Shown here: positions 17,381-37,637 of the stretch, in pieces
How positions within the stretch are numbered: position 1 is the stretch's first letter
Layout: each line of letters begins with the position of its first letter
NCBI GenBank assembly: GCA_947571135.1
Contig: CANOWY010000009.1
Location: forward strand, 1 to 47,788
Direction: 5' to 3'
DNA: 47,788 bases
Source of the DNA: an uncultured Mycoplasmatota bacterium
Lineage (GTDB): Bacteria; Bacillota_I; Bacilli_A; RF39; UBA660
Translations under genes and position numbers: made by a program
The notes under the pieces: model-generated
Seen by the model: only the letters and a program-made list of their open reading frames with translations
Database searches by the model: none
Told to the model about the DNA's origin: nothing

Positions 17381-17403
17381 AAAACTCACCTACTTTACTT
17401 CTG

Positions 17404-19188
17404 TTATAGTCCTCCACCAGATCCAAATGAATCTAACTCTGCTTGCGTAACTATAACATTAATACGCATTCTTCTATTACCACAAATAAATAGTCCTTCC
17501 CCTTGGTTGTAATATTTAATGCTTTCTGCTTCGGCATCATTTAAATCAATTAATTTTCCTAAATCTTCTGTTGCTTGTTTACGAAGACCCATAATTAAGT
17601 AATAAGCAGCGTTATCAAATATGGCTTTACCATGTACCAATACATTCGGTGCTGCAAAGTCTGTTGGTTGTTGTGTAATAATAATCGTACCTGTATTGTA
17701 TTTACGACTACGTCTTTGTATTTGGGCTAGGAATTCTGCTCCAAGTTCATTACGTGTAGAAAGAAGTACATGTGCTTCGTCTACACACATTACGGTATCA
17801 ATTTCTTTATCTAAACACAAGCCCCATGCATACTTTAAAATATTAAAGAATAAAGCATTTTTAATGTTTTCATCACTGTTCATAAGTTCACGAATATTGA
17901 ATACTATAAAGTCACTTTCAATACTTAAAGTTGTATGTCCAGTAAAATAGTATTTTAATTCTTTTACAAGTGGACGAACCTTTAACTCTAAGCGTTCCAT
18001 AACATCTTTTTCGTGTGTTTTATCTGGCATGGATAAAATTCTGCCTTTAATGGTTGCATAAACATCATCAAATGTTGGATAATCATTTGCTGTTAATTTT
18101 GTAAAATCAGTATCATAATCAATTTTATAGCGTTTATAAGTGTCTTGTACTACTTCACTAAACATTGTTAACACATCTTCTTCAATAGATGGTGAATAAT
18201 ACTTCATAAAGGCTTTTAATTGTTGTAATGTTCTTGTAAGAACAGTATAACCAAGACCAGACTCAATTTCTTCTTCATCAGCATCCACAACGATTTCAAG
18301 TGGATTAATCATTCCAAATTGCCCACCTTTGCCTAAATCTAGGAAGTCTCCACCAATATTTCTTGTCATTTCCGCAAGTTCTCCTTCAGGATCGATACAT
18401 ACTACTTTATACCCATTACGTAAATGACCTCTAATTAATAATTTTGCGGCTGTTGATTTACCACTACCACTCGTACCTAAAATAATCATATTGGCATTGT
18501 TACGATTGTTTTCTTTTTTTATCTTATATAAAAATTGATTAAATAAAACAACTCCTCCTGAAAAATCTACACCAAATAAAATACTGTTCCCTGGATCTTT
18601 AATACTATCAAAGATAAACGGATACATGGCAGCAACAGTAACCGACGGAATTGGTGTTCCAACACGATTTTCCACATCTTGTTTTGGAAAAATTGGCAAA
18701 ATGGATTTTAATACCTTTTCTTGTTCAAACATCAAAGGTATTCCACGCATTCCCATGCCTTCCAAGAAATTACGTACTTGCATTTTTTTCATTTCTAATT
18801 CTTCTTTGTTATCAGCAGAAATAAATAAATGCATCTGGAAATCAAAGATTCTTGCTTGCGTTGCAGCGAGCATTTGTATGAATTGTTCTAAAGATTCATA
18901 ATCCTGACGAATTCTTTCTTGAAAAGTTTTATCATTTTCCGTTTGATATCTTTGTTTTAAATCAGCAATTTCTTTATTTAACATTTTTTGTAAAGTTGAA
19001 AAAGCAATGGGAATATGTTTAATGGCAACTTTAACACCAGAGATATTAGTAATATTGGCAAGGTACCCTTCTGAAATATATTTAGGATACGATACAATAG
19101 TCAAAATCGTACAATATTTGCCACTCATCATCATTTCTGTTGGTTTAAATTCTATCCCCTTAGGGGCTAATTGGGCTTTTATATTCAT
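17404..19188 (-). CDS. virB4: VirB4/TraE-type ATPase, main (C-terminal) part
   Basis: This 594-residue protein is the ATPase portion of VirB4, which energises type IV secretion channel and pilus assembly at the cytoplasmic face. It has Walker A GTSGSGKS (238-245), CIDPEGE (264-270), Walker B VMCVDEAH (466-473) and RRSRKYNTGTIIITQQPTDF (492-511). The N-terminal 200 residues have the helical pattern that normally follows the first VirB4 domain. That first domain is encoded by the preceding gene, whose stop overlaps this start in ATGA. VirB4 is one polypeptide of about 800 residues in most systems, so the split is notable. Confidence 0.93.
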   Translation of the reverse strand: MNIKAQLAPKGIEFKPTEMMMSGKYCTILTIVSYPKYISEGYLANITNISGVKVAIKHIPIAFSTLQKMLNKEIADLKQRYQTENDKTFQERIRQDYESLEQFIQMLAATQARIFDFQMHLFISADNKEELEMKKMQVRNFLEGMGMRGIPLMFEQEKVLKSILPIFPKQDVENRVGTPIPSVTVAAMYPFIFDSIKDPGNSILFGVDFSGGVVLFNQFLYKIKKENNRNNANMIILGTSGSGKSTAAKLLIRGHLRNGYKVVCIDPEGELAEMTRNIGGDFLDLGKGGQFGMINPLEIVVDADEEEIESGLGYTVLTRTLQQLKAFMKYYSPSIEEDVLTMFSEVVQDTYKRYKIDYDTDFTKLTANDYPTFDDVYATIKGRILSMPDKTHEKDVMERLELKVRPLVKELKYYFTGHTTLSIESDFIVFNIRELMNSDENIKNALFFNILKYAWGLCLDKEIDTVMCVDEAHVLLSTRNELGAEFLAQIQRRSRKYNTGTIIITQQPTDFAAPNVLVHGKAIFDNAAYYLIMGLRKQATEDLGKLIDLNDAEAESIKYYNQGEGLFICGNRRMRINVIVTQAELDSFGSGGGL

Positions 19189-19745
19189 TCTGGCATCACC
19201 GTTCCTAACGTAGTGGCTTGTCCACCATTAAAGAAATTATCAATAAGCATTCTTAAATCATTGTTTGACACTTGTGTTGAATTTAATCCACATGTTCCTA
19301 AGTTACTAATTAAGTTATGAATACGTTTTTGTACTATTTCTAACTTCTTTTCTTTAAATAAAATAAAGTATTCTGTATCAACCACATTATATTCTGCACT
19401 CATAAACATATTGGCTTTATTGATATCTTGCATAATTAACTTACGAATAGCAGAACTACTTGCATTGTTGTAAAGAATTTGTAATTGACTTAAATGAACA
19501 TTAATATCTACTGGTCGATCTGCTACAATTAACCAAAACTCATAATCCATTGTATTATAAAAGTTCCTTAAATTATAAATGACATTATTTTGAGTGTCTT
19601 GATCTAAGATAAATATATTTTTAGGGGCTACTTTTACTCCTGTTACATATTCACCTGTTTCTAATTGAATCATTCCATTCATAATTTGTTTGATTGGTAT
19701 CCAATCTTCTGTATATTTACTTCCTATATTTTTATTCTTTGTCAT
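19185..19745 (-). CDS. N-terminal domain of VirB4 as a separate protein
   Basis: The 186-residue protein matches the extreme N-terminus of Gram-positive VirB4/TraE proteins: a short lead, then DWIPIKQIMNGMIQLETGEY, KVAPKNIFILD and a region of about 100 residues ending TTLGTVMPE. It has no ATPase motif. The stop TGA overlaps the ATG of the next gene; the frames differ, so readthrough of the stop would end after one codon. I chose the ATG at 19745 (MTKNKNIGSKY); a start at 19787 would extend the overlap with the PrgI gene. The two parts presumably assemble into a functional VirB4. Confidence 0.8.
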   Translation of the reverse strand: MTKNKNIGSKYTEDWIPIKQIMNGMIQLETGEYVTGVKVAPKNIFILDQDTQNNVIYNLRNFYNTMDYEFWLIVADRPVDINVHLSQLQILYNNASSSAIRKLIMQDINKANMFMSAEYNVVDTEYFILFKEKKLEIVQKRIHNLISNLGTCGLNSTQVSNNDLRMLIDNFFNGGQATTLGTVMPE

Positions 19746-20046
19746 CGTTAATACACCAGCCTTTCCAATATAACCTTTTTCTACCAAAGATAAATAAAAT
19801 AATATTTGTCAATAACTGTAACACATTATGATAATTTGGAACCGGCATTACTAGAAATGCTGATACCAGTGCTGGAGATAAGATAAGTAATAAAGAACCC
19901 ATTTCCACTTTATCATTAAATAAGAACAATAAAGTTAAAGTGATTGTACATCCTATCCCAAATATAATTAAATCTACAAAAGTAAAAAATCCTAATATTA
20001 ACATTGATTTTTTAGAATTGGCTGGTATTAAATAATTATGATTCAT
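19732..20046 (-). CDS. PrgI-family membrane protein
   Basis: The 104-residue protein has two hydrophobic helices (about 14-42 and 49-67) and the PrgI/TcpE-type ending, a conserved Pro-x-x-Asn-x-x-x-x-Leu segment followed by FIFGRKRLYWKGW. PrgI proteins sit beside VirB4 in Gram-positive type IV systems and are thought to play a VirB3-like role at the membrane. Its gene overlaps the VirB4 N-terminal gene, and an AGGAGG Shine-Dalgarno precedes it. Confidence 0.85.
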   Translation of the reverse strand: MNHNYLIPANSKKSMLILGFFTFVDLIIFGIGCTITLTLLFLFNDKVEMGSLLLILSPALVSAFLVMPVPNYHNVLQLLTNIILFIFGRKRLYWKGWCINDDKE

Positions 20047-20662: not shown

Positions 20663-21802
20663 TTATTTTTTTTCGCCCTCTTTTTGTATAAATTCTGCAT
20701 ATTCTCTTGCTGTTTTGTTTTTATTCTTTTCAAATTCAGAATGATTTTCCATATATCGGAATTCTTTTTTCATATCACTAACTAAAGTTTTTAGTGCTGA
20801 TGTAGTCATTGCCATTGGATTTTGACCATTCCAAGAAGCATCCCAACCATCATTTGTTAAATCTTTAATTCCAGATAATAAATTAGCATTTTGACGTCTA
20901 AATGTCTCGAATGATGTAACTAATTCTGCATATTCGGCATTTCTTGGATTACTCAAATCTCCTAATTTTTCATTTATTTCTTTCATTACTTCATAAGCTT
21001 TTGCATTTTTTAATTTGTCAATTTGGTCTGCTCTATCTTTTAATGCAACACTATAATCGGCATCGTTTCCATAATCTTCTCTTTTGATAGCAGCCATGTT
21101 TAACGCCTCAATTTGTTGATCATATACTTTTGCTTGTGTACTTTTCTTTAAAGCCAAATCTTCTAATTTCTTTTTATAGTCAAATCCTTGTTGATAAACT
21201 TCTAATGTTTTCTTTAAAGCATCTGAACTAGCATTTAATCCTGCCCATTTACCTATTCCACTAATAACATCATCTAAATGGGCTGCTGGTGTAAGAATTT
21301 TATTGCTTGCACGATATGCTTCTCTTTTACTTCTTGCAGTAATGGCATTTGCAGCACCTTCACCTGCTGCTTTTGCAACATCTCCAAATTTTTTTGCAGA
21401 AAAACCACCTTTTCCACTACGTATTCCTCCGCTAACGAGCCCTCCTGCAGCAGTAAATGGCGTATATAAAAAATTTTTCCCAATTGTTACAACTCCACTA
21501 CCAAATGCACTGCCAAATGCTTTGGCCCTATTTCCAAAGCCTTGACCTTTTGTATTATGAAATTTATTATATCCACCATAAATATTATCACAAATATTAT
21601 TTAAACCATGAGTCACATTTCTTGTAAGTGCAGTGGCTCCACCACCTAGCATTGCTGCAAGTCCAAATGCACCATTAGCAGCAAGTTTTCCACCAATTCC
21701 AAGTTTAATATTTCCAGAATCAAGTCCTAAAACATCTCCAATTAATTTTGGTGCTTGTTTAGCAAAAGCAAATATTCCTAAAATGACTATTACTTTATCC
21801 AT
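20663..21802 (-). CDS. C-terminal part of a VirB6/TrbL-like protein, separate gene
   Basis: The 379-residue protein begins with a hydrophobic helix and the motif FAFAKQAPKLIGDVLGLDSG, which in Gram-positive VirB6/TrbL-like proteins follows the last transmembrane helix. A long Gly/Ala-rich, basic and then helical charged region follows. It looks like the cytoplasmic or channel-lining tail of VirB6 made as its own polypeptide. Its start overlaps the end of the membrane part by 13 bp, with AGGAGG eight bases before the ATG, so it is translated independently. Confidence 0.75.
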   Translation of the reverse strand: MDKVIVILGIFAFAKQAPKLIGDVLGLDSGNIKLGIGGKLAANGAFGLAAMLGGGATALTRNVTHGLNNICDNIYGGYNKFHNTKGQGFGNRAKAFGSAFGSGVVTIGKNFLYTPFTAAGGLVSGGIRSGKGGFSAKKFGDVAKAAGEGAANAITARSKREAYRASNKILTPAAHLDDVISGIGKWAGLNASSDALKKTLEVYQQGFDYKKKLEDLALKKSTQAKVYDQQIEALNMAAIKREDYGNDADYSVALKDRADQIDKLKNAKAYEVMKEINEKLGDLSNPRNAEYAELVTSFETFRRQNANLLSGIKDLTNDGWDASWNGQNPMAMTTSALKTLVSDMKKEFRYMENHSEFEKNKNKTAREYAEFIQKEGEKK

Positions 21803-22776
21803 AATACATATCCTCCTAAATACTCACTTATATTTTTTAACTGTAAAAAATCTCCTTCAAATATTCCTACACACAAAGCACCAACTAGCATAATAATAAA
21901 GATTCTTATAAAAACTTCCATATAAGTTGCAATGGTTGCTTTTACCCAATTATCAAATACTGATTTCTTTTCTGGTATAATCCTTAATAGAATAGGAACA
22001 GGTGCAATAATTTGATAAAATGCTAGTTTAACGACTCTAACACCTAAATCAAGACAAAAGGATAATACAACATATACCAAAAATAAGCCACAAACCGCAC
22101 TAACCATAGGGATATAGAATGAATTCCCCTGTTCTTCGTGGATTGGCTCAGCAAAATAGGTTATTTTCATAAAGTTTTTAATATGGCCTTGCCGTATAAC
22201 TTCTTTTAATTGCCCCCAAGTTACTGAACCTTCACCATCTGATTCCAACCAATCTTTTACATCATCTACAATACTATTTTCGCTATCACCCTCTTCAGGT
22301 GGTCTTAAATGTCCTACTACATCATCATCCATATCTATAAATGCTAATAAAACTTGAAGCGCAATATTATTTCCTGTATTCGCTATGTCTTGTGTATTAT
22401 CATTAAATAAAATATTCCCTATTATATTTTCTTCTATAATAATGCTTTGTAAATCACGTGCATAACTAAATATTACTGGAACAATTCCTAAAAGAACAAT
22501 CGATATAATAACATTAGTTACAATTTTTCCTGTATCTTTAGATAAATTATCAGGATTAATTAAAGATTTTAATAATGAATATGCTACAACAAAAAGCATA
22601 AAAACGCCAATAATTACATAAACTCTATCCATCATTTCTGAAAAAAAACTCTCTTTAATAATTTCTGCTCCTGCCAGTTTAGCATACAATGAAAATAAAA
22701 GGCTTAGAAGCCAATATATAATACCGTCAATAATCAAAAAAAGACCAGTTAAACCATATTCCAGTGCTTTTAACAT
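21790..22776 (-). CDS. VirB6/TrbL-like polytopic channel protein
   Basis: The 328-residue protein has about six hydrophobic segments and an exported loop (about 115-225) that is acidic in the middle. The opening LKALEYGLTGLFLIIDGIIY and the KLAFYQIIAPVPILLRIIPE motif with FDNWVKATIATYMEVFIRI match VirB6/TrbL-like proteins of Gram-positive type IV systems. It would form the inner-membrane channel. It lacks the usual long C-terminal region, which is encoded by the next gene. GGGAG precedes the ATG. Confidence 0.82.
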   Translation of the reverse strand: MLKALEYGLTGLFLIIDGIIYWLLSLLFSLYAKLAGAEIIKESFFSEMMDRVYVIIGVFMLFVVAYSLLKSLINPDNLSKDTGKIVTNVIISIVLLGIVPVIFSYARDLQSIIIEENIIGNILFNDNTQDIANTGNNIALQVLLAFIDMDDDVVGHLRPPEEGDSENSIVDDVKDWLESDGEGSVTWGQLKEVIRQGHIKNFMKITYFAEPIHEEQGNSFYIPMVSAVCGLFLVYVVLSFCLDLGVRVVKLAFYQIIAPVPILLRIIPEKKSVFDNWVKATIATYMEVFIRIFIIMLVGALCVGIFEGDFLQLKNISEYLGGYVLWIK

Positions 22777-22794: not shown

Positions 22795-23226
22795 TTACCA
22801 TCCACAAGTAGTTGAATTGATGCCAGTAATACTTAGTATATAATCAATAATTGTTGGTAATAAAAAGATAATGGCTCCAATAATTAGCCTTTTTAACAGT
22901 TTATTTGCCGCTGTTTTTAACTCTTCAGTTTTTTGAGCAGACATTGCTTTTATAAAATCAACAACTGCCAATGCAATTATAATAATTGGTACAGCAAATT
23001 TTACAAGTTGCATGATTTGTTTTAAAAACTCTCCAAACCTTCCAGCACATAAAACGTTATCCGTTTCAAATTTTTTTGTAATAATTGTGCTAAACATTGT
23101 ACTATCTTGTATATTAATATTATTGTTTGAAAAATTAATTTTAAAATTTTCTTTAGCATCAACATTTAATATGATAATGCTGCAAGCGAAAATTATAAAA
23201 ATAATTTTTTTTATATTTTTTTTCAT
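22795..23226 (-). CDS. VirB2/TrbC-like pilin-type protein, third copy
   Basis: The 143-residue protein has a signal peptide, a short exported segment with one Cys and two hydrophobic helices separated by a charged turn. The core (VPIIIIALAVVDFIKAMSAQ, then IGAIIFLLPTIIDYIL) is shared with two other genes of this locus. It belongs with the VirB2/TrbC-like, Mbov_0395-type pilin proteins. I chose the ATG at 23226 behind GGGTGATTTTT; a TTG five codons earlier lacks a site. It lies 18 bp before the VirB6-like gene. Confidence 0.8.
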   Translation of the reverse strand: MKKNIKKIIFIIFACSIIILNVDAKENFKINFSNNNINIQDSTMFSTIITKKFETDNVLCAGRFGEFLKQIMQLVKFAVPIIIIALAVVDFIKAMSAQKTEELKTAANKLLKRLIIGAIIFLLPTIIDYILSITGINSTTCGW

Positions 23227-23331
23227 AAAAATCACCCACAAAAAGCCTTCTTGTTTAATCTTAATTTATTATATCAATATTTTTAAGAGAATACTAGCAA
23301 AAATCAAAAAAGTGATTAAAACCTACTAATT

Positions 23332-24474
23332 TTAATCACAATTATTTGGCTCAAAAATACATACTCGACAGTCATTATAATAGTTTGCACCGCCACTTAT
23401 TATACTTTTAAAAACAAAATTAACTATGGTTGGTATAATAAAGATTGCAATTCCAGCAATAATTCTAATCACTAACGAACTTGCTGCCTTTTGAAGAGAA
23501 TCACCATTAGATGACATTACTGCTTTTGAAAAATCAATTACACCTAATGTTATTAATAAAATTGGAACTAAAATTTTAACTATTAAAAGTAAATTGCCAA
23601 AAAACTTTAATGTATTTTTTACACCACTTATATTGCACATTTCTTCTAAATTGATATTGCCCTTATTTATTGTACTAGAAACTTCCTTACATTCAATATT
23701 TGCATTTTGTGGAAATTTACATCCTTCTGAGCAAAAATACTCAACATTTTCTTGATTTTCTTTACTAGAGCCACAAATAAATTGATACATTGCTGGATCA
23801 TAAGTTTGTATATCGGTAATATTTCCAAGGTAGTCATAATTAGCCATTTTTATTTTTTTAGTTTGTATATTATAGTAAAAATCTTGACAAGTTTCGGTTA
23901 TTGGATACGAAGTAACTTCTTTTGTTCCATCCGGAAAAGTTATATACACTTCTCCATTATCTTCTTCACGACTTACATCTATTTTTTTATCTGAATTTTC
24001 ACTTAAATAAAAACAATTAAATTTCGGCTTTTCAACATTTGTTTGATTATTTAAACATTTTCCTGTACAAGAACTTTCATTTGCTTTTAATGTATAATGA
24101 AATTTTGTTCTATCACTCGCTGAAAAATCATTTACAAAGTTAACTACGGTTTTTCTATCAGATTCAGTTTCAATGTATTTAGGACAATCTAAATTTCCAT
24201 TACTATCCATAAAATTATACTTTTTTAATGTTGCATCACTTGCTTCCGTAATCAGCCCAATATTTGAATCGATATTCCCACTATCATTTGTTGCAGCCCT
24301 ATCAATTAAAATATAATAACCTCCATTATAAGAACAATACAAAGAAAGAGTATTATCATTTGCTGTCCCATTATCATTTATAGTTATTCCGTTTTTAGAT
24401 GTACTTGCGTAAATATTAGGAATTAAAATAACTATAAGGTATAATACAAAAACTAAATAATTTATTTTCTTCAA
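23332..24474 (-). CDS. Cys-rich ectodomain fused to a VirB2-like two-helix module
   Basis: The roughly 380-residue protein has a signal peptide, about 260 exported residues rich in Cys (for example SSCTGKCLNNQTN and CSEGCKFPQNANIEC) and a C-terminal two-helix module (VPILLITLGVIDFSKAVMSS, then IAGIAIFIIPTIVNFVF) like the two small pilin-type proteins of the locus. After it comes a Cys-rich tail (CRVCIFEPNNC). It may be a minor pilin or tip adhesin held by the pilin module. I prefer a TTG start at 24474, five bases after AGGTGAT, over the GTG inside that site. Confidence 0.8.
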   Translation of the reverse strand: MKKINYLVFVLYLIVILIPNIYASTSKNGITINDNGTANDNTLSLYCSYNGGYYILIDRAATNDSGNIDSNIGLITEASDATLKKYNFMDSNGNLDCPKYIETESDRKTVVNFVNDFSASDRTKFHYTLKANESSCTGKCLNNQTNVEKPKFNCFYLSENSDKKIDVSREEDNGEVYITFPDGTKEVTSYPITETCQDFYYNIQTKKIKMANYDYLGNITDIQTYDPAMYQFICGSSKENQENVEYFCSEGCKFPQNANIECKEVSSTINKGNINLEEMCNISGVKNTLKFFGNLLLIVKILVPILLITLGVIDFSKAVMSSNGDSLQKAASSLVIRIIAGIAIFIIPTIVNFVFKSIISGGANYYNDCRVCIFEPNNCD

Positions 24475-24499
24475 TTTAATCACCTAATTTACTATTAAC

Positions 24500-24508
24500 A
24501 GTATACCA
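24500..24508 (-). promoter_or_regulatory. Extended -10 promoter for the downstream half of the locus
   Basis: TGGTATACT on the minus strand lies about 25 bp before the TTG start and after a terminator. It is a TGN-extended -10 with no strong -35. It would start transcription of the VirB2-like/VirB6-like to VirB4 genes. Confidence 0.45.
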
Positions 24509-24574
24509 ATTTTTTTCAATCATTACTAGTCTTAACATAAGTTAATAAAAATCTTTCTAGGAAAAATAAATAAA

Positions 24575-24594
24575 AAATAGAATTTTTTCTATTT
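24575..24594 (-). terminator. Internal terminator of the secretion locus
   Basis: An 8-bp perfect stem (AAATAGAA / TTCTATTT) with a 4-base loop is followed by a T-rich tract on the minus strand, shortly after the 129-residue gene. It divides the locus into separate units. Confidence 0.6.
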
Positions 24595-24627
24595 ATTTTA
24601 ATCTATTATACTATGGCATACTGAATA

Positions 24628-25017
24628 CTATCTGCTTCTCATATCACCATAATCTTCATCATAATCCATTGATTTCCTAGAAATTATTTGTTCAAATTTT
24701 TCTATTTTAGACATTTCCATAATAGTTTTTAATTGAGCACAATCAACGATATACTTATTCGAAATGCCTTCTGCAAGACTCGTAATTCCAAATAATGCAG
24801 CCATTATTATACTATATTTTATAATTTCGTCTAGACTATAAACATTGCTTTTCTTAAATAAATCTTCTAATACTTCTGTATACATTGGATATGTTAAAAA
24901 AGTACTCACAATTCCAGAATTACGGATTATTTTTACCCACTTTAATCTTTTTTTTCTAGCCATCAATATATTTCTTTGCTTTTCAAAAGTCATATTTCTA
25001 ATTTTTTTTATTTTCAT
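24628..25017 (-). CDS. Small membrane protein of the secretion locus
   Basis: The 129-residue protein has a strongly basic N-terminus (RKKRLKWVKIIRNSG), one or two hydrophobic segments (about 34-46 and 65-82) and an acidic/basic tail. No family is recognised. It is a separate transcription unit with a consensus -35 promoter and a terminator. The basic start predicts a cytoplasmic N-terminus. Its function may be unrelated to secretion despite its place inside the locus. Confidence 0.65.
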   Translation of the reverse strand: MKIKKIRNMTFEKQRNILMARKKRLKWVKIIRNSGIVSTFLTYPMYTEVLEDLFKKSNVYSLDEIIKYSIIMAALFGITSLAEGISNKYIVDCAQLKTIMEMSKIEKFEQIISRKSMDYDEDYGDMRSR

Positions 25018-25049
25018 AATTCTTTTTCCTTTCCCCTGAATTGCTATTT

Positions 25050-25078
25050 ATGTTAGTATATTCTGTTACAAATGTCAA
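25050..25078 (-). promoter_or_regulatory. Promoter of the 129-residue membrane protein gene
   Basis: A perfect TTGACA, a 17-bp spacer and TAACAT lie about 30 bp before the start codon on the minus strand. Confidence 0.55.
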
Positions 25079-25120
25079 TTTTTAATTGTTATTTAAAAAT
25101 ACAGTCAAAAATATTGCTTT

Positions 25121-26236
25121 TTATCTAATTATGTATGGATTATCTTTTGTACCATCTCCACTTGCAAATAAAACATCGCTACTTAAGGCAACTACAAAAC
25201 GATTTTGAGCAGTAGTATTTGCATAATCAGATATTATTTGACCTCGTCCATTAACATAAAACACATCATAAGTTGATTTTGTATCTGCAGTCATTGTCCA
25301 CCATTTAAATTTGTTATCAGCCAAGTAATTATAATTTTGACATTCTTCACTAATAGTTTCTTGACATAATCCATCTAGGCTAGCATTCATATAATCATAT
25401 ACTGGCAAAAGACCAATCATTTGCTTTTCAATTTTTTCATTGCATTCTAAACTTCCACTTTTATCTGTACTTTCTTCTAATCTTTTTCCAACACATAAAT
25501 CAAATTGTGCCAAATAATGTGAATAACTACTTAAAGTTGTATCATAAAAACTTTTGATATTCGAAAAAGAACGACTTAATAAAAAACTATTTATTCCTTT
25601 TCTTGAATCTTTTTCTGTATTATAACGATTATCCCAATCTCCGTTAATATCTGCTTTGTCAGTACTTACAATCATTTCAATATTTCCTGACTTATTTATT
25701 TTTATTAGACGCCATAATCTATCTGCAAATGAAACAAAATTATTTGGATTTTGTCCTCTAAAAACAAATTCATTATTTAGTTCATATAGTCCTTCATACG
25801 TTTGAGAAAGTTTATTATTTTTTTTAATTACATCAACGAATTTTTCTGTTTTAAACTTATTACATGTTAAATATGTCTGATATTTATAAGCATTATCTAT
25901 ATAATCTACCATTATATTAGCAGTACATGAAGAATCTTTCACATATTTTTTTAATTCTTTAATGTATTTATTTTCTATTAAAGTGTCTGTACTTATTATA
26001 ACAGTGGGTTTTGTATCATTTGGAAGTTCATCTGGATGTTCTGAAAGATACTTTAAACTCGCCTTTTCCAATTTTTCTTCTAATTGTTCATAAGTAATTC
26101 TAGAGCCAACTATTTTCACAACTATTGCTACTGTTATTATAATTAATAACATAATCAATGCTATACTTCCAAATAGCATGACTTTTTGTTTATTACTTGA
26201 ATATATATTTTTTAAATGCTCTAATTTCTGTTTCAT
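25121..26236 (-). CDS. Membrane-anchored surface protein with WRLIKI-type domain
   Basis: The 371-residue protein has one N-terminal transmembrane helix (about 19-41) and a long exported part. The segment YELNNEFVFRGQNPNNFVSF followed by RLWRLIKINKSGNIEMIVS resembles a domain seen in many surface proteins of uncultured Bacilli, close to DUF6273-type domains. The end reads GDGTKDNPYIIR, also common there. Cysteines occur in pairs. It lies just after the VirB2-like pilin, so it may be a pseudopilin-like or surface component of the machine, but no function is shown by the sequence. Confidence 0.75.
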   Translation of the reverse strand: MKQKLEHLKNIYSSNKQKVMLFGSIALIMLLIIITVAIVVKIVGSRITYEQLEEKLEKASLKYLSEHPDELPNDTKPTVIISTDTLIENKYIKELKKYVKDSSCTANIMVDYIDNAYKYQTYLTCNKFKTEKFVDVIKKNNKLSQTYEGLYELNNEFVFRGQNPNNFVSFADRLWRLIKINKSGNIEMIVSTDKADINGDWDNRYNTEKDSRKGINSFLLSRSFSNIKSFYDTTLSSYSHYLAQFDLCVGKRLEESTDKSGSLECNEKIEKQMIGLLPVYDYMNASLDGLCQETISEECQNYNYLADNKFKWWTMTADTKSTYDVFYVNGRGQIISDYANTTAQNRFVVALSSDVLFASGDGTKDNPYIIR

Positions 26237-26271
26237 TTGTTATCACCATACAAAAATCATATCATAGAGAC

Positions 26272-26296
26272 AAAAAAAAAGCAATTTACATTGCTT
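26272..26296 (-). terminator. Terminator of the VirB2-like pilin gene
   Basis: A 6-bp stem (AAGCAA / TTGCTT) with a 6-base loop is followed by nine T on the minus strand. It overlaps the pilin stop codon. Confidence 0.75.
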
Positions 26297-26687
26297 AATC
26301 ATTTCCCCATAATTCATCTGCGGCAGTACATCCAGTGTTTGGATTCGTAATACATGCTTTACAGACCTCAAAATCATCCTGAGCACCCTCACTAAATCCA
26401 CCTATAACTGTCATAATAAAACTAATAATTGTTGGGAGCAAGAAAATAACCACAGCAGCAATCGCTCTTCTGACTAAAGCACCCGTTGCTTTTTTAATTT
26501 CATCTTCTTTACTTGCAATAACTGCTTTTCCTAAATCAATCATACCAAATATGATTAATAATAATGGAATGACAATTTTAAATACTAATAATACCCAACC
26601 TACAAGTTGCCAAATATTTGCTGTTGCAGCACAAAAACCATCTGCTTGACCAACTTCCATTGTTAAAAATAAATTTGCTAAGTTCAT
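26295..26687 (-). CDS. VirB2/TrbC-like pilin, probable major subunit
   Basis: The 130-residue protein has a short lead, then two hydrophobic helices (about 27-48 and 73-96) around the charged turn KAVIASKEDEIKKATGALVR, and a Cys-containing tail (CKACITNPNTGC). The core VIPLLLIIFGMIDLGKAV ... FLLPTIISF is shared with two other genes here and with Mbov_0395-type pilin-like conjugal proteins. It should be the main subunit of the type IV secretion pilus or channel lining. It is the only one of the three with its own consensus promoter and strong terminator, fitting high expression. Confidence 0.83.
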   Translation of the reverse strand: MNLANLFLTMEVGQADGFCAATANIWQLVGWVLLVFKIVIPLLLIIFGMIDLGKAVIASKEDEIKKATGALVRRAIAAVVIFLLPTIISFIMTVIGGFSEGAQDDFEVCKACITNPNTGCTAADELWGND

Positions 26688-26798: not shown

Positions 26799-27794
26799 TT
26801 ATCCTTTAAAAATATTAAATAATTTGCTATTTTTTGGTTCTTCTCCACTGGAATCTTCAAAACGAGCAAAACCTAATTTAATTAAAAATTCTTCTAACAC
26901 TTTTTGATAATCTAACTTATCATCTAAATATGGAATATTATAAAATACTTTACTGCGTGATTCATACTCAAAGTCCTTAATATCGCGTTGATTTAAAATA
27001 CTTCTATTTAAAACAATCTTTTTGTCTTTTAATTTTTCAAAAGCACGTTTATCTTTACGAATAAGTTTATTTAGTTTAATTAATCCTGGTTCAATTAAAT
27101 AAATAACCTCTGAACAAGATGAAATGCTTCCTCGATCATTTAAATCAACAAGTATCACTTCTGCTTCACTATTCATCGCAATAAATGCGGGTAAATCAAG
27201 ACTTGAGGTTGTCTTTAAAGTCTTATCATTAAAGTAAATAAAGTCGTGTTCATCTACTTCTACAGCAATAACATTATATTTAGTTGCTAGTTGCTTTTTT
27301 AATAAATATGTTAAAGTAGTAGATCCTGCATGATTTGTTACATTTTTAATTCCAATAACACGTAAGCCTAGTTTATTATAATCTCCGCCTTCATCCCCAG
27401 AAGATGTTACATTATTTAATTGATGATATTGCGCAACATCTTTATATGTATTTGGATTGTTGATTAAAAACTTAATAGCATCTACATTACGTGTAAAATT
27501 ATAAATTCCCATTGAAATTAATCCAGATAAATATTTTGGAGAGTTGACAATTTCGGAATCATCTAAAAGAATAATAATATTACTAACATCCATTCTTACA
27601 GAAAGACTCTGTAAAGTTTCAATATCTTGGTAATTTTTTAATGCCGTGATATCTAGAATCATTTTATTAAAGTAAAAGTTAGTAAATTGATTCACTAAAT
27701 CTTCTACTTCAAATTCTCCATTTATATTTTTTATAATATCAATATCGAGTGTTGCTAATAATGACTGGTATTTATTTGATACAATAACATTCAC
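26799..27794 (-). CDS. TadZ/CpaE-like protein with degenerate P-loop
   Basis: The 331-residue protein has an N-terminal receiver-like domain (about 1-120, ILLDD near 75-79) and a ParA/MinD-like domain, the layout of TadZ/CpaE proteins that place Tad pili. The P-loop reads NVTNHAGSTT (151-160), lacking the lysine of the deviant Walker motif, so ATP hydrolysis is doubtful; this is seen in several TadZ lineages. VEVDEHDF and EVILVDLND follow as the later motifs. The start is GTG, nine bases after AGGAGG. It ends the Tad part of the locus. Confidence 0.8.
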   Translation of the reverse strand: MNVIVSNKYQSLLATLDIDIIKNINGEFEVEDLVNQFTNFYFNKMILDITALKNYQDIETLQSLSVRMDVSNIIILLDDSEIVNSPKYLSGLISMGIYNFTRNVDAIKFLINNPNTYKDVAQYHQLNNVTSSGDEGGDYNKLGLRVIGIKNVTNHAGSTTLTYLLKKQLATKYNVIAVEVDEHDFIYFNDKTLKTTSSLDLPAFIAMNSEAEVILVDLNDRGSISSCSEVIYLIEPGLIKLNKLIRKDKRAFEKLKDKKIVLNRSILNQRDIKDFEYESRSKVFYNIPYLDDKLDYQKVLEEFLIKLGFARFEDSSGEEPKNSKLFNIFKG

Positions 27795-27797
27795 TTT

Positions 27798-28286
27798 TTA
27801 TTCCTCCTTTGCTATTAAGTTATCTGCAGGGATTACAACATCTCCTGTAGAACCGTTTACATCAAATTTAAATATATCTCCTAAAACTGGTAAATTAAAG
27901 TAGAAAAATATATTGACTCTATAATACACTTTCCCTCTGTTATTTACAGAAGGGGCTTTTATTTTACTAACACAATAATAATACTTTTTACTATTACTCG
28001 TTACTAATTCCGCAGTACTTCTATTTAAATCTCCCACTCCATAACTTCCTACTTCACAGGACTTGGTTACTCTATAATTCGTACTTTTTAAATAATTGTT
28101 GATAATTTCAATAGCACCATTTGCTCCATCTGTTAACCCTTCTCTTTTTTCAATAATGGATAATATTTCATTTTTTACTTTAAATGCTTTTGTATAATTC
28201 AGTGATAATGCTAGAAAAGCAACAAATATTAGCATAAATATAATGATTAATTGGGTAAGCCAAGTACCACCTATTGCTTCTCTCAT
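27798..28286 (-). CDS. TadE-like pseudopilin 2
   Basis: The 162-residue protein begins MREAIGGTWLTQLIIIFMLIF, a hydrophobic helix near the N-terminus, followed by a soluble domain with two Cys. This resembles the TadE/TadF minor pilins of Tad systems. It is a paralogue of the gene just upstream (both start MREAIGGTW and share NY/NHxKAFxVKN). Its start codon overlaps the upstream stop by one base with GGGGTGA before it. It probably primes or caps the Flp fibre. Confidence 0.8.
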   Translation of the reverse strand: MREAIGGTWLTQLIIIFMLIFVAFLALSLNYTKAFKVKNEILSIIEKREGLTDGANGAIEIINNYLKSTNYRVTKSCEVGSYGVGDLNRSTAELVTSNSKKYYYCVSKIKAPSVNNRGKVYYRVNIFFYFNLPVLGDIFKFDVNGSTGDVVIPADNLIAKEE

Positions 28287-28765
28287 TACTTCACCCCTTT
28301 AGAATGACTCATAATTTTCGTATCTCCAGAAACTCTAAATTCGAATATACTTCTAAATATTGGTAAATCGAGTTGATAAAATACAACTACTCTATAATAA
28401 TTCATAATAGGAATTTCTCCATAACGATCTGGAACATTTCCTCTGGCTGCTTGTGCTTTAAGGCAAAAAGATGAATTTCTACTATCAATTTTTCCGTCTC
28501 TATTATACCCAGTATAACCATCTGGACATTTTCCTGTAGTTCTATACGATGTTTCTTTTAAGTATTCGACAATTTGTCTTATTGCAGGATCACTATCTGG
28601 ATTACTTAAATTTACGCCTTCTTCTCTTTCAATGGCTTTTACAATCGTATTTTTTACATTAAATGCCTTGGAATGGTTAATTGATAAACACATATAACCT
28701 GTGAAAAGCAAGATAAAAAAGATAACGATTTGAAAAATCCAAGTACCACCTATTGCTTCTCTCAA
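28286..28765 (-). CDS. TadE-like pseudopilin 1
   Basis: The 159-residue protein has an N-terminal helix (MREAIGGTWIFQIVIFFILL) and a soluble domain of pseudopilin type with Cys residues. It is clearly related to the following gene (conserved N-terminal helix and KAFNVKN). The start codon is TTG, nine bases after GAGGTGAT, supported by alignment with its paralogue. It belongs to the Tad set and follows the two Flp-like pilin genes. Confidence 0.8.
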   Translation of the reverse strand: MREAIGGTWIFQIVIFFILLFTGYMCLSINHSKAFNVKNTIVKAIEREEGVNLSNPDSDPAIRQIVEYLKETSYRTTGKCPDGYTGYNRDGKIDSRNSSFCLKAQAARGNVPDRYGEIPIMNYYRVVVFYQLDLPIFRSIFEFRVSGDTKIMSHSKGVK

Positions 28766-28780
28766 CTTACATCACCTCAT

Positions 28781-29020
28781 TTAACCTTTCCAAGGGCATT
28801 TAAATTCTGTCCCCTCTTGACGGCCATTTTTATAGTATTTGCATGTTACAAGTCCTTCGCTTAAAGTTCTTTTGTCACATACAGCATCACTACATTTATT
28901 GGTTGCAATAAATGTATTTTTTATATTAGGCCATAAAATTGCAAAGAAAAAGACCGATAGGATTGCTACCGCTACAACAATTACAACCGTTATATTTAAC
29001 TCTCCTGTGGCCTGTTTCAT
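28781..29020 (-). CDS. Flp-like pilin 2
   Basis: The 79-residue protein has a short hydrophilic lead MKQATGELN, a hydrophobic helix (about 10-31) and a Cys-rich tail. The size and layout match Flp/Tad pilins, but the classical Flp cleavage motif (Gly followed by Glu-Tyr) is not evident; TGELN is the only Gly-Glu. It is a near paralogue of the upstream pilin. Confidence 0.75.
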   Translation of the reverse strand: MKQATGELNITVVIVVAVAILSVFFFAILWPNIKNTFIATNKCSDAVCDKRTLSEGLVTCKYYKNGRQEGTEFKCPWKG

Positions 29021-29044
29021 AGTTTTCTAACTCCTTATTTTTTA

Positions 29045-29284
29045 TTAGTCCGTATCGTTATTATTTGGACAAGTAACTTCTTGAGCATTATTGTTTTCAT
29101 CCCAATAAGTACATTTACAAGTTTTTCCTGTACATTTACAATCTGTTACAGATGAACATTTTGTACTATTTAAGATGTTTGTTTTAATACTTGGCCAAAC
29201 AAACGCATAGAAGAATGCGGCTACTGCTGCTATTGCTACTACGGTTACAACCGTCATATTTAGTTCTCCAGTTGCTTCTTTCAT
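29045..29284 (-). CDS. Flp-like pilin 1
   Basis: The 79-residue protein has the same design as its neighbour: MKEATGELNMTVV, a hydrophobic helix, then a tail with several Cys (KCSSVTDCKCTGKTCKC). These cysteines may form disulfides that stabilise the fibre. A GAGGAGG Shine-Dalgarno and a consensus-like promoter of its own precede it, so it is probably the major Flp subunit. Confidence 0.78.
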   Translation of the reverse strand: MKEATGELNMTVVTVVAIAAVAAFFYAFVWPSIKTNILNSTKCSSVTDCKCTGKTCKCTYWDENNNAQEVTCPNNNDTD

Positions 29285-29313
29285 TTAATAAATACCTCCT
29301 CTATTATATTTTT

Positions 29314-29342
29314 ATTATAACTTTTTTTTCCTATAATATCAA
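29314..29342 (-). promoter_or_regulatory. Promoter of the Flp-like pilins
   Basis: TTGATA, a 17-bp spacer and a perfect TATAAT on the minus strand lie about 30 bp before the first pilin gene. This is one of the best promoters in the window, matching strong expression of a fibre subunit. Confidence 0.7.
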
Positions 29343-29357
29343 TATTTTATACTATTA

Positions 29358-30146
29358 TTACATTCCCATTAACATTAAAACTGCGAATATTAATAGAACC
29401 ATAACTCCTAGACCAGTTGCAATTAGCATACTCATTGTCTTAGATTCCATTTTTTCTAAGCGCTCTTTATATCTTGTATCCCTTGCTTTTTGTTGTAAGT
29501 TAGATATTGTTTTTGAGAATGCTAATAACTGATCTTGTTTATGCTCTTGTCTTCCTAAACTCAAGCGATATAAAAGACGCATCATACGCATTGAATCTCT
29601 TACAGGATATTGTCTTGCAAAATTTACATATGGATCAATTTTATCATTACCAGCGTTAATTTCATTAATCAATTCTTGTAAGCCTTCTCTAAAGATTGGA
29701 GGAGCGTCATTAATCGATTTTCCTATGGCAACTGGTACCGTATAATGTTGAATTAGTATTTCTAAACTCTTTAAATAATGTGGTAACATAGAATTGATTT
29801 CATGTAAATGAGATTTGTAATATTTTCTAATATTAAAGTAATCTAATTTAAATATTAAGTATCCACCTAAGCAGCAAAATAGAAATGTAACATAATTAAG
29901 TTTAGATATAAAGCAAAATACTAGAACAACTATCGTAACTAATCCATTTCGTATTCTTTTGTTAAATAGAATGTCTCCATTAACTCCTTCTCCATATTTT
30001 GCCTTTACATAAAAGTCCCAATCGTCTTCTTTTAATTTTCTAAAATAAACTTCATTATCTGCAATAAAACGATTAGCACTAATTCTACCTGTATAATTCA
30101 TGACATAAAGGAAAATAACTCCGACTATTAATATTTCGATTGACAT
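29358..30146 (-). CDS. tadC: TadC-like membrane assembly protein
   Basis: The 262-residue protein has N-terminal helices, a helical T2SSF-type cytoplasmic domain (about 95-215) and a C-terminal hydrophobic segment (MLIATGLGVMVLLIFAVLML). It should pair with the TadB-like protein to form the membrane platform of the Tad secretion machine. Its start lies one base after the TadB-like stop. The T2SSF assignment is based on layout and order rather than on one strong motif. Confidence 0.8.
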   Translation of the reverse strand: MSIEILIVGVIFLYVMNYTGRISANRFIADNEVYFRKLKEDDWDFYVKAKYGEGVNGDILFNKRIRNGLVTIVVLVFCFISKLNYVTFLFCCLGGYLIFKLDYFNIRKYYKSHLHEINSMLPHYLKSLEILIQHYTVPVAIGKSINDAPPIFREGLQELINEINAGNDKIDPYVNFARQYPVRDSMRMMRLLYRLSLGRQEHKQDQLLAFSKTISNLQQKARDTRYKERLEKMESKTMSMLIATGLGVMVLLIFAVLMLMGM

Positions 30147-30147
30147 A

Positions 30148-31041
30148 TTATTCTACCCCCACATCTTGATTATAGTATTTTTCTCCACTTAATAAGAAAT
30201 AACAATTGATGATAATGATGGCATGTAATATCATTTTGACATACCAAATATCTAATAATTCGATATAACTATCTGTTCCTAATAAAAACTGCATAGCCAT
30301 TACAAGTAAAAATAGGGCTAAACCAAATGTAATAAAACGTTTGTGAAAGTTTTTACGATCGGCTTGATCACGATATACTCCTTCTACTAGGGCGTCAATA
30401 TCTTGTGACATATTTTCAAGGGCTTCTCCTGAATCTTTTGCTCCTTCTTTGGTGATTTGTAAAAATAATTGATTCATATTTTTTACCATATAGAAAGGAT
30501 ATTTTTCATTAAAGAAATCGATAGATTCATCAATTGTACCATTTTGATAAGACATCTCAATCATAGTTCTAACATCTTGTAGAACCGGATCTTCTAAAAT
30601 TCCTGAATCTCTGACTCCTTCTAAAGATTTAACAAAACTTTGTGTCGTTGTAAATTCCATAATAACATTTGTTGTATATATTTGAATTTGCTCAAATATA
30701 AACTCACTATATATTTTTTGATATCTTAAGTAGGCCAAATAAGGAATAAAAGCCACTGCAATTAAAGCATAAACAATCGCAATTACTATATTATAAAAGT
30801 ATAAATAAGAAATGCCTCCTGCTACACCTGCAAACATAATAATTTGACTTGTGTATTGACGAACTGTAAATTCTTGCCCTAAGGACTTTACTTTTTCTTT
30901 TACTTCCTTATAACTATAAGGAGCAAATTTTTCGTATGTATCTTTTACTTGTGTAACAAAGAAACGATAGACGTTTTCTCCATTATTCTGACGGTAAGAT
31001 ACAACATAGATTCCTATAATCCATAATAGAATTAATTCCAT
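30148..31041 (-). CDS. tadB: TadB-like membrane assembly protein
   Basis: The 297-residue protein has N-terminal helices, a T2SSF-type cytoplasmic helical domain (about 120-230) with KEGAKDSGEALENMSQDIDA, and two C-terminal hydrophobic segments. It is the usual partner of TadC and follows the CpaF ATPase gene. In Tad systems TadB and TadC form the inner-membrane platform through which the ATPase drives fibre assembly. Confidence 0.83.
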   Translation of the reverse strand: MELILLWIIGIYVVSYRQNNGENVYRFFVTQVKDTYEKFAPYSYKEVKEKVKSLGQEFTVRQYTSQIIMFAGVAGGISYLYFYNIVIAIVYALIAVAFIPYLAYLRYQKIYSEFIFEQIQIYTTNVIMEFTTTQSFVKSLEGVRDSGILEDPVLQDVRTMIEMSYQNGTIDESIDFFNEKYPFYMVKNMNQLFLQITKEGAKDSGEALENMSQDIDALVEGVYRDQADRKNFHKRFITFGLALFLLVMAMQFLLGTDSYIELLDIWYVKMILHAIIIINCYFLLSGEKYYNQDVGVE

Positions 31042-31058
31042 ATAATATCCCTACTTTC

Positions 31059-32192
31059 TTATATAGTATCTACTGCAGTTTGATTTAAGGTTGTAGTAGC
31101 ACCATTTGGAAGAGCACTTACCTTATTTGTAGTGTTTTCCGTTCTAAAAATTGTTTCTGGTAAGATTACTCCTTGAATAGATAAATAATCTCTTAAATGT
31201 TGGGTTGGATTATTTAAAGACATTTTTCCATCCATTGATTTTTGAAATATGGTATTCACTTGTGCTTCGTTGTTATCATCTACATAAAATTCACAAATTT
31301 CCATAATTTCTCTTTGGAATCTACCAAGTTCCTTGCTCATATATCCTTTTACATATACACCAATTTGAATATATCGATGGATAGTCGTTAAAAACTGCTC
31401 CACATCTTGATTTGTTTCTAATAAACTATACATACGCATTGGTATACTTGACGCTTTATCTGAGTGGATTGTCGATAAAATATGATGTCCAGAAGAAATC
31501 GAGTTACGAACCGCAAGTACTGCTTCCGCACTACGAACTTCTGATAATAAAATCCATATTGGATTTTGACGCATACAAGTTACTAAAACATCAGAATATG
31601 AAGCAATATTGTTTGTTTTCATTGCTACAATGTCACGGTGTGGGAAAATACGATCTAAGTGAAGTTCTAGGGTATCTTCAATACTAATTATTTTTTCATC
31701 TTCTTTTGTAGTGCTTGCAAGATATTTTACAAGTTCTGTTTTCCCTGAACCAGTTTCTCCACTTACTATTATATTCGCATGTCCTTGTACGCACTGTAAA
31801 AGAAAATCAAGTAAATCTTCTGAAACATATTTTTCATTTATCAACTTTTCTTTGTTCAAGCGAATTTTAGCAGGAGTTTTACGTATTAAACAAGCAATTC
31901 CATTTGTTGCTATTGAATCGTGAACAAAATTTAAACGAAGTTCAGTAGATTCAGCATCTAGAAAAGGGTGTGCCATATTAAAGGTTTTTCCCATTACATT
32001 TGAACATTGAAATGCCAATTTTTCCATTAAAGCATTATTAATTTCTGGTCTTTCTACTTTATATACACCTCGAGAAAGAGTTTTTAACCAGACTTGTCCA
32101 CCATTACTATAAGATATATCGGTAACATCATCTACTCTTAAAAACTCTTCTATTGGTCCAAAATCTAATTGTGAAAATATTGCATCATTCAT
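31059..32192 (-). CDS. cpaF: CpaF/TadA-type secretion ATPase
   Basis: This is a 377-residue hexameric ATPase of the VirB11/CpaF family. Walker A GETGSGKT (145-152), Asp box SIEDTLEL (170-177), Walker B WILLSEVR (213-220) and His box GHHILSTIHSDKASS (235-249) are all present. It powers Tad fibre assembly at the cytoplasmic membrane. Because VirB11 of type IV secretion is in the same family and none is seen elsewhere in the locus, one ATPase could serve both machines; this is inference. Confidence 0.93.
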   Translation of the reverse strand: MNDAIFSQLDFGPIEEFLRVDDVTDISYSNGGQVWLKTLSRGVYKVERPEINNALMEKLAFQCSNVMGKTFNMAHPFLDAESTELRLNFVHDSIATNGIACLIRKTPAKIRLNKEKLINEKYVSEDLLDFLLQCVQGHANIIVSGETGSGKTELVKYLASTTKEDEKIISIEDTLELHLDRIFPHRDIVAMKTNNIASYSDVLVTCMRQNPIWILLSEVRSAEAVLAVRNSISSGHHILSTIHSDKASSIPMRMYSLLETNQDVEQFLTTIHRYIQIGVYVKGYMSKELGRFQREIMEICEFYVDDNNEAQVNTIFQKSMDGKMSLNNPTQHLRDYLSIQGVILPETIFRTENTTNKVSALPNGATTTLNQTAVDTI

Positions 32193-32234
32193 ATGTAGAC
32201 ACCCTCTTTCGTATTCTTTTGTTTTTTTTATTCT

Positions 32235-33074
32235 TTATTGATTATTGTCATTGTTGTTTGTATTTGCGTTATTTTGATTATCTGTAGTTGTATTTTGTGG
32301 TACAACAGCACTTTTTGATAGAACAAAGTTTCTTAAATAATCACTTGAAACTCTTTTTTCACCAGGATTGGCACTATAAGAACCATTTCTTGGTACTGGA
32401 ACAATTTCAATAGAAGAACCACTAATATATCCTGTTTTCATTAATAATTCGTACATGTCATTCGGAACTGCAAATAATAGTTCAGAAGGTGTACGACTTT
32501 CTACTGTAGTTTCAAACACATGATTTCCTTGACTATCTTTAACTGCAAGAACTTCAATACTTTCAATAAATTTACCAAATATAACTTTATCTGTTTCATC
32601 AATTGCTTTTAAATATAAATCGATGTAGTTTCCTGGATATATTGAGTTACCATAAGTTGAATGTAAATCTACATTTAAACTAAACACTGTATATCCATCT
32701 GGAATATCCGCAAAAGCACTATCAGGCATTTCATCAGATGTCAATATTTGTGATTTATAAAACATACTATTGGCTGGAATTGTTGTTCCAAATGATACAT
32801 AGTTGTTAATTAATTCTTGAGCATTTGTAATTAAATTTGCACTACTTTTTACAACGCTACTTGAAACCTCCATATATCCAATCATGTCGCTTGTAATTAA
32901 TGTACGACTAGATAATTCCTCTTTGGCATAAGGAACAGTCACTGGTGTTGTTGCTTGTTTTACACGGTAATTATACCCAATATATAATACCAATATCGCA
33001 AGCAATACTCCTAAAATTGTTACAGTGTTTTTGTTTGCTAAAAATCTTTTAACTGTTGTTAATACATTTCCCAT
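32235..33074 (-). CDS. cpaB: CpaB/RcpC-type SAF-domain protein
   Basis: The 279-residue protein has one N-terminal membrane helix (about 16-32) followed by the SAF domain (KEELSSRTLITSDMIGYMEV) and the RcpC/CpaB-type domain. The end is low complexity (Asn/Gln rich). CpaB is a Tad component, usually periplasmic or wall-associated, and possibly interacts with wall sugars. It lies directly upstream of the CpaF gene. AGGAGG precedes the start. Confidence 0.87.
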   Translation of the reverse strand: MGNVLTTVKRFLANKNTVTILGVLLAILVLYIGYNYRVKQATTPVTVPYAKEELSSRTLITSDMIGYMEVSSSVVKSSANLITNAQELINNYVSFGTTIPANSMFYKSQILTSDEMPDSAFADIPDGYTVFSLNVDLHSTYGNSIYPGNYIDLYLKAIDETDKVIFGKFIESIEVLAVKDSQGNHVFETTVESRTPSELLFAVPNDMYELLMKTGYISGSSIEIVPVPRNGSYSANPGEKRVSSDYLRNFVLSKSAVVPQNTTTDNQNNANTNNNDNNQ

Positions 33075-33101: not shown

Positions 33102-33509
33102 CTATTCTTGCCCTGTAAGTTCAAGAATAGCATCTATTTTATTTACAATATCAAATGATGTTGAATCGCCTGCTACAATAAAACTTCTTGTTTTACTTGC
33201 AACCCGCACGCTTACTTTAGGTGGCGCTTCATACAAATCATAAAATGATATTTCATAAGTATTTAAACTTACATTCTCAGCGAATCTTCTTAAAAAAGAT
33301 TCGATAAATTTTTCACGGTCAATTTTTAATTCCCCATATTCACGAAAATATCCATAATTTACAGCATCAATCATGGCTGCTTCTGTTACTTCTTTTACTA
33401 AATAGTAATCTTCTGTATTTTGAGTAGTTATATTTGAAATGAGCATCATAATAACGACTACAAAAACACCTAATAAAATTAACCAATAACCCCAGTATGT
33501 TTCTTTCAC
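33102..33509 (-). CDS. TadF/pseudopilin-like small protein
   Basis: The 135-residue protein has a hydrophobic N-terminal helix (about 7-27) and a soluble domain (EVTEAAMIDAVNYGYFREYG, then KVSVRVASKTRSFIV) as found in minor pseudopilins of Tad systems. The start codon is GTG, eight bases after GGGGTGA. It lies between the large surface protein gene and cpaB, and probably belongs to the fibre initiation complex. Confidence 0.7.
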   Translation of the reverse strand: MKETYWGYWLILLGVFVVVIMMLISNITTQNTEDYYLVKEVTEAAMIDAVNYGYFREYGELKIDREKFIESFLRRFAENVSLNTYEISFYDLYEAPPKVSVRVASKTRSFIVAGDSTSFDIVNKIDAILELTGQE

Positions 33510-37174: not shown

Positions 37175-37190
37175 TTAAATGGTGAATAAA

Positions 37191-37637
37191 ATGAAAAATA
37201 AAAATATATTTCTTGGGGTAATCATTATATTACTTATTGTACTTGGATCATCTTTGATTTATACTCTCGCTTTTAAAAATATGGGTAAAGATTCTAATTT
37301 AATTAGTCTTTCTGTATCTGAATTAGAAGCAAAAATAAACAATAAGGATACTTTTATTTTAGTAATAACCCAAACTGGTTGTAGCCACTGCGAACAATAT
37401 ATCCCTGAATTAAATCGGACTTTAAAAAAGAATAACTTAACTGCCTACAAATTGAATATAACAGAACTTAATAAGGAAGATTCTTCTCTTCTTTCTCATT
37501 ATATAAACTTTTCTGGTACTCCAACGACTATCTTTTTTCATGATGGTTTTGAATCTACTACATTAAATAGAATTGTTGGCTATGCTTCTCAAACCAAAAT
37601 TACAGAAAGACTAAAATCTTTGGGGTACATTGATTAA
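37191..37637 (+). CDS. Membrane-anchored thioredoxin-like protein
   Basis: The 148-residue protein has one N-terminal transmembrane helix (about 7-29) and a thioredoxin fold on the outside. It has the active-site motif CSHC within TQTGCSHCEQYIPEL, and a cis-Pro loop GTPTT. It would catalyse thiol-disulfide exchange on exported proteins. Its place just across from the Tad/T4SS locus, which encodes several Cys-rich exported proteins, suggests a role in their folding. I chose the ATG at 37191, since GGTGA precedes it and the nearer upstream ATG would overlap the predicted transcript start. Confidence 0.85.
   Translation: MKNKNIFLGVIIILLIVLGSSLIYTLAFKNMGKDSNLISLSVSELEAKINNKDTFILVITQTGCSHCEQYIPELNRTLKKNNLTAYKLNITELNKEDSSLLSHYINFSGTPTTIFFHDGFESTTLNRIVGYASQTKITERLKSLGYID

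Follow-up and report, generated by a model that had tools for sequence, protein, structure and literature searches.

What is the role of three small, related genes that lie on a bacterial chromosome between a Tad pilus cluster and the genes of a type IV secretion system (T4SS)? The question is raised by a 47,788-nucleotide (nt) stretch from an uncultured Mycoplasmatota bacterium (RF39; UBA660; assembly GCA_947571135.1, contig CANOWY010000009.1), referred to below as the window. The genes, to which we assigned the labels pilA, pilB and pilC, encode homologous two-helix cores belonging to T4SS-pilin families, and in this genus such cores have exchanged the ectodomains attached to them. We consider it moderately probable that they encode the pilins of a T4SS of the monoderm class that is chromosomal, lacks a relaxase and is fixed in a single family of gut Bacilli with small genomes, a plain main pilin being accompanied by minor pilins that display variable domains.

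Three genes built on one pilin core

A preliminary description of this DNA had placed three open reading frames (ORFs) at 22795, 23332 and 26295, and all three are present there, on the minus strand:

26295..26687, minus strand: pilA, a 130-residue pilin core (PF18895, E 2.9e-4), proposed main pilin
23332..24483, minus strand: pilB, 383 residues as listed, with signal peptide, Cys-rich ectodomain of ~255 residues, pilin core and Cys tail
22795..23241, minus strand: pilC, 148 residues as listed, with signal peptide, ~40 residues and pilin core (PF18895, E 0.024)

For pilB, the sequence points to TTG 24474 as the probable start, because the listed GTG at 24483 falls inside a Shine-Dalgarno-like AGGTGA; pilC likely starts at ATG 23226, so that its product would be of ~143 residues. 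The exported, Cys-rich extra part of ~260 residues that had been ascribed to one of the proteins is found in pilB, as a signal peptide followed by ~255 residues, with 14 cysteines in the whole protein. pilA has neither a signal peptide nor a stretch before the core like that of pilC; it carries a cysteine before helix 1 and a tail of the form C-x2-C-x(7)-C, and a tail C-x2-C-x(5-7)-C beyond helix 2 is common to pilA and pilB. No Flp-type prepilin cleavage motif could be seen by eye in the three proteins, and the signal peptides of pilB and pilC are Sec-like. AlphaFold2 models pilA as a helical hairpin (mean predicted local distance difference test score, pLDDT, 80) and pilB as a beta-rich ectodomain with a long hairpin (mean pLDDT 78, predicted template modelling score 0.37).

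The core consists of a helix, a lysine-rich loop and a second helix, and its recurrence in the three genes, as originally noticed, reflects homology beyond chance. When local alignments were compared with 500 shuffles preserving hydropathy blocks (shuffled means 45-56), the pilA and pilB cores scored 189 against a shuffled mean of 56 (Z 11.4), pilA and pilC 138 (Z 9.8) and pilB and pilC 140 (Z 10.1), and none of the 500 shuffles reached any of the three scores. A search of its own genome with pilA only returned pilB (2.4e-19), pilC (1.4e-11) and no further matches, while a profile built from 66 cores (A1) matched the pilB core at 1.1e-30 and pilC at 5.2e-28.

The proteins had been called VirB2-like pilins, and a profile comparison had been proposed as the check. 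The cores do not fall into unrelated families; they are placed in T4SS-pilin families, and to that extent the assignment holds. At E<=0.01, 41 of the 66 cores matched PF18895 (T4SS_pilin), the best of them at 1.1e-7, and at most 7 matched any other Pfam family, and ~4 of the 66 passed 7e-6, the E-value estimated to correspond to the PF18895 gathering score. The most frequent NCBIfam match was NF045849, the Mbov_0395 family pilin-like conjugal transfer protein (15/66 cores, best 3.6e-5), which pilA of the window does not match. The part of the assignment that did not stand is membership of TrbC/VirB2 itself: PF04956 is absent among the 25 families listed (of 27 matched) for the 66 cores and, up to E 1, is matched by none of pilA, pilB and pilC. 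VirB6-like conjugation proteins are matched by some cores as well, and a VirB2-VirB6 relation of a similar kind is described for CedA1/CedA (PMC9905601). A profile search of the PDB with the core gave chance hits only (rhodopsin and others).

Exchange of ectodomains and fusion to enzymes

The suggestion that these pilins are made from one module is strongly supported by the existence of three core clades, by ectodomain exchange between pilB and pilC cores and by enzyme fusions. Within the genus, cores assigned by sequence motif to type A, B or C before tree building formed separate clades of 18, 19 and 20 tips (support 0.92, 0.83 and 1.0, respectively). The ectodomains do not follow this division: one ectodomain type is carried by 8 C and 5 B cores, a second by 9 B cores and 1 C core, and a third by one of each. 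Since the ectodomain clusters are discordant with the core clades, domains have been swapped at the ectodomain/core boundary. Further, orthologous ectodomains are less alike than cores (28-42% vs 41-57%). In this genome only pilB has an ectodomain, whereas most congeners also have one of similar size on pilC, so that the pattern of one ectodomain among three pilins is particular to this genome; two congeners have a short pilB. Orthologues of pilA occur in nearly all congeners, with 57-95% identity.

Within the pilB ectodomain (23638-24474), the cysteine spacing hints at two repeats (C50-C100-C139xxxC143 vs C157-C199-C251xxxC255); this tandem repeat is suggestive, and hhalign did not support it. 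Structure searches with the pilB model gave no informative matches. Single ectodomains from other genera (alignment A3) match Amidase_3, a VgrG3-like C-terminal domain, VWA or Paramecium surface antigen.

Outside the genus, the core also stands at the N-terminus of larger proteins, of which 67 ORFs were collected in 15 genomes; as the loci were selected for long frames, this count is not a frequency. The C-terminal parts match Peptidase_C39_2 (10/70), CHAP (6), NlpC/P60 (4), a metallo-beta-lactamase fold (4), VanY (3), glucosaminidase (3), M23 (2), phage lysozyme (2), GDSL and others, and motif residues such as the HxH of M23 and the SHGC of the YkuD type can be recognised. The enzyme parts also gave PADLOC matches (LmuA, PDC-M48B, others), which were taken as shared hydrolase folds; a scan for a loose SGNH motif lacked the specificity to be of use. 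About half of the fusions are followed within 50 nt by a gene on the same strand, and 27 of 34 such genes were scored as encoding lipoproteins or membrane-anchored proteins (for example L138:3534-4175, L139:3735-4385, L163:3348-3983 and L172:3651-4244), of families mostly without a Pfam name. The simple reading of these as private immunity proteins was rejected: fusions to C39, to CHAP and to VanY have a single lipoprotein family as their downstream neighbour, and this family therefore looks like a general partner.

These fusions lend themselves to a bolder proposal, which we put forward tentatively and regard as rather doubtful. The VirB2-like hairpin might serve as a T4SS export-and-display tag, such that whole families of extracellular, mostly peptidoglycan-active enzymes would be made as pilin fusions, built into a pilus and either shown to adjacent cells or injected at them; the plain and ectodomain-bearing pilins of the window would then be the simple end of a range.

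A conserved chromosomal locus

The pilin genes are preceded by a Tad cluster and followed by genes for VirB6, PrgI, VirB4 (two ORFs), a cell-wall protein and VirD4:

26799..33074, minus strand: Tad cluster comprising TadZ, TadF/E-like, two Flp-like, TadC, TadB, TadA ATPase and CpaB
25121..26236, minus strand: p25121, a 371-residue membrane-anchored protein between pilA and pilB, with synteny in congeners
21790..22776, minus strand: VirB6-like polytopic protein, first part, named from alignment to single congener proteins and from its position between the pilins and PrgI
20663..21802, minus strand: VirB6-like protein, second part, a separate ORF identified by the same alignment
19732..20046, minus strand: PrgI (VirB3-like; PF12666, E 0.0058), position conserved
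17404..19787, minus strand: VirB4 as two ORFs, N part 19185-19787 and ATPase part 17404-19188 (AAA_10, TraG P-loop)
15101..17389, minus strand: VirB1-like cell-wall protein (Peptidase_C39_2, 2.2e-6)
11966..14245, minus strand: VirD4-type coupling protein (T4SS-DNA_transf, 3.2e-56)

In the Tad cluster, whose order is conserved in congeners, T2SSE (2.9e-26), RcpC (3.1e-6) and CbiA (0.018) were matched; the remaining Tad names were given from order, size and sequence pattern, without a Pfam match. Each of the 15 congener loci without a break in this stretch shows the order TadZ-pilA-p25121-pilB-pilC-VirB6-PrgI-VirB4N-VirB4C. Among 80 loci from the family, 43 contain pilin arrays unbroken to VirB6, each of 2-7 pilins, and 37 of these 43 include at least one pilin of at least 200 residues. 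VirB4 is split into parts of ~185-215 and 594-604 residues in every family locus showing both parts, with an ATGA overlap here; the split is therefore fixed and not a frameshift. The VirB6-like protein is encoded by two overlapping ORFs here (20663-22776) and in two congeners (L043, L044), and by a single ORF of ~670-740 residues in others. Other genera have extra copies of the p25121 family away from the pilin cluster (L061, L062, L063, L243).

In the genome samples searched, the pilin core is confined to one family. Profile A1 detected 176 of 193 family genomes at 1e-5, these being metagenome-assembled genomes (MAGs) and incomplete. In a sample of the class it matched 36 of 38 family members and none of 258 others (1e-7), and in a sample of the phylum 13 of 344 genomes, all of them family members, with ~330 others silent (1e-6). 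As it is silent outside the family, the profile is specific and does not act as a general detector of helical hairpins. The genomes carrying the system are MAGs of uncultured Bacilli/'Tenericutes' such as Ca. Ventrenecus and Ca. Coprovivens, and the record titles include rabbit, chicken, mouse and ruminant material. VirB4 was found in 166 of the 193 family genomes, nearly always in single copy and mostly ~70-85% identical among those listed. The presence of pilins tracks that of VirB4: both were detected in 160 genomes, pilins only in 16, VirB4 only in 6 and neither in 11 (Fisher p 3.7e-7, odds ratio 18).

Considering that VirB4, VirD4, PrgI and VirB6 are of conjugation type and that the nearest named families are proteins of Mollicutes integrative and conjugative elements (ICEs), the three genes could encode standard conjugation pilins belonging to an integrative element that inserted at this site. 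We find this hardly credible, given that the locus is single-copy with a conserved order throughout the whole family, that pilA has no match among 72,556 plasmids, and that every plasmid VirB4 in this set shares less than 60% identity with the VirB4 described here (~27-29% in the best matches listed). It is a further argument against it that a search for the single relaxase family PF03432, and for no other MOB family, found none in this genome; PF03432 was present in 5 of 22 same-genus genomes listed (this one included), on contigs other than that of the locus. The genome also contains ComEC.

Proposed assembly and its parallels

Under the favoured explanation, a T4SS pilus with display pilins, the core would be a hairpin with both termini outside and the loop in the cytoplasm, as predicted by the positive-inside rule. 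In solved conjugative T4SS pili, the inter-helix loop is positively charged and turned towards the lumen, while the termini are close together, being joined in cyclic H-pilin (PMC12037004); with this geometry, an ectodomain at the N-terminus or an enzyme at the C-terminus would point outward from the tube. pilA is likely the main subunit, because it is the most conserved of the three and lacks a signal peptide, while pilB and pilC may be rarer minor pilins that are exported by Sec and whose N-terminal part comes to lie outside. At the membrane, VirB6, PrgI and VirB4 would build a short pilus or conduit from the pilins. The ectodomains, which have moved between subunits in the course of evolution, would be located on the surface or at the tip of this structure as putative binding domains. 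The roles of major, minor and tip-adhesin pilin put forward in the preliminary description remain putative. The conserved cysteines that flank the hairpin, ahead of helix 1 and beyond helix 2, could hold the termini together through a disulfide, as cyclisation does elsewhere.

Several points weigh against this explanation. The matches to PF18895 lie mostly below the gathering score and are weak for single members, and pilB has none. Foldseek searches (pilA and pilB against the PDB, pilB also against viral structures) matched no T4SS pilin, and neither did VIA-align list one for pilA; for a hairpin, such results are uninformative, and the VIA-align list excludes nothing. Moreover, 16 pilin-positive genomes have no VirB4 hit, among them G126, which is 96% complete and has 8 pilin-enzyme fusions (L156, L157, L165, L173, L176). 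Finally, in 10 loci (L276, L281, L284, L286, L287, L292, L295, L296, L300, L302) the first pilin directly follows TadC and no T4SS gene was recognised downstream; 5 of these loci end at a contig end.

The fusions kept by G126, together with the dispersal over the genome of unrelated enzymes fused to the core, are what would be expected if the core were a generic two-helix membrane anchor, with pilB, pilC and the enzyme fusions as membrane-held surface proteins that never polymerise. We judge this unlikely, since the residues of loop and helices are strongly conserved in the core alignment, and in more than mere hydrophobicity, and the T4SS-pilin family assignment, the tight synteny with VirB6 and the co-occurrence with VirB4 speak against it as well. 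The TadC-adjacent pilins, for which a Tad role is possible, and the position of pilA after TadZ or TadC in many loci raise another alternative, in which the proteins would belong to the adjoining Tad pilus, as accessory pilins or as parts of its platform, and not to a T4SS. This seems to us improbable: it is VirB6 that follows the 43 complete arrays, 14 of which have no Tad gene upstream within the fetched stretch, and the families found by profile are those of T4SS pilins and of membrane proteins of conjugation, and not Flp/TadE.

The closest parallel to a T4SS with display pilins is the T4SS of Patescibacteria with its VirB2-like pilin arrays (PMC12102498). These too are small-genome monoderms, and their T4SS is chromosomal, of the monoderm class and in most cases without a relaxase; the arrays hold divergent VirB2-like pilins including PF18895, and type IV pili and ComEC occur in the same organism. 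The system described here differs in belonging to Bacilli, in its adjacent Tad cluster, in having VirD4, and in the long ectodomains or cell-wall enzymes on its pilins, features not mentioned for Patescibacteria in the text consulted. In Ca. S. epibionticum, growth on the bacterial host is reported to require the pilin array (PMC10633639). Mollicutes ICEs share the pilin-like, VirB6-like and VirB4 proteins (Mbov_0395, Mbov_0396, Mbov_0397) in the same relative order, judged from family names, and NF045849, named after Mbov_0395, was matched by 15 of the 66 cores; the present locus, in contrast, is a fixed chromosomal one with a split VirB4, several ectodomain pilins and no relaxase within it. 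The archaeal Ced/Ted systems (CedA1/TedC) resemble it as domesticated T4SSs with VirB2-, VirB6- and VirB4-like parts and pilins that may or may not carry a signal peptide, but no ectodomains are mentioned in the text consulted, and for them DNA import has been shown (PMC9905601). Multiple variable VirB2/VirB5 paralogues, with proposed surface binding, are also known from Bartonella Trw (reviewed in PMC12857230), where the envelope is Gram-negative and plain paralogues vary, whereas here domains of 260 residues are swapped.

According to a 2025 review, Patescibacteria are the sole exception to the absence of VirB2 pilins from Gram-positive T4SSs (PMC12857230), and a literature search, whose coverage left out most subscription journals, found no published description of the present system. 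If the proposal is true, a second monoderm lineage, present in many animal guts, has a fixed T4SS with pilins bearing exchangeable domains and enzymes, which would make the T4SS pilin a display scaffold and offer a comparative handle on what relaxase-less T4SSs do in small-genome bacteria.

Three further genes lie beyond the Tad cluster. Two of them are kept beside it in relatives: 33102-33509 encodes a strong DUF5411 protein (2e-56), and 33527-36199 an exported protein of 890 residues with 33 cysteines and no Pfam match. Near these Cys-rich surface genes, a thioredoxin-like, membrane-anchored protein with a CSHC motif is encoded at 37179-37637 on the plus strand, and is possibly a disulfide partner.

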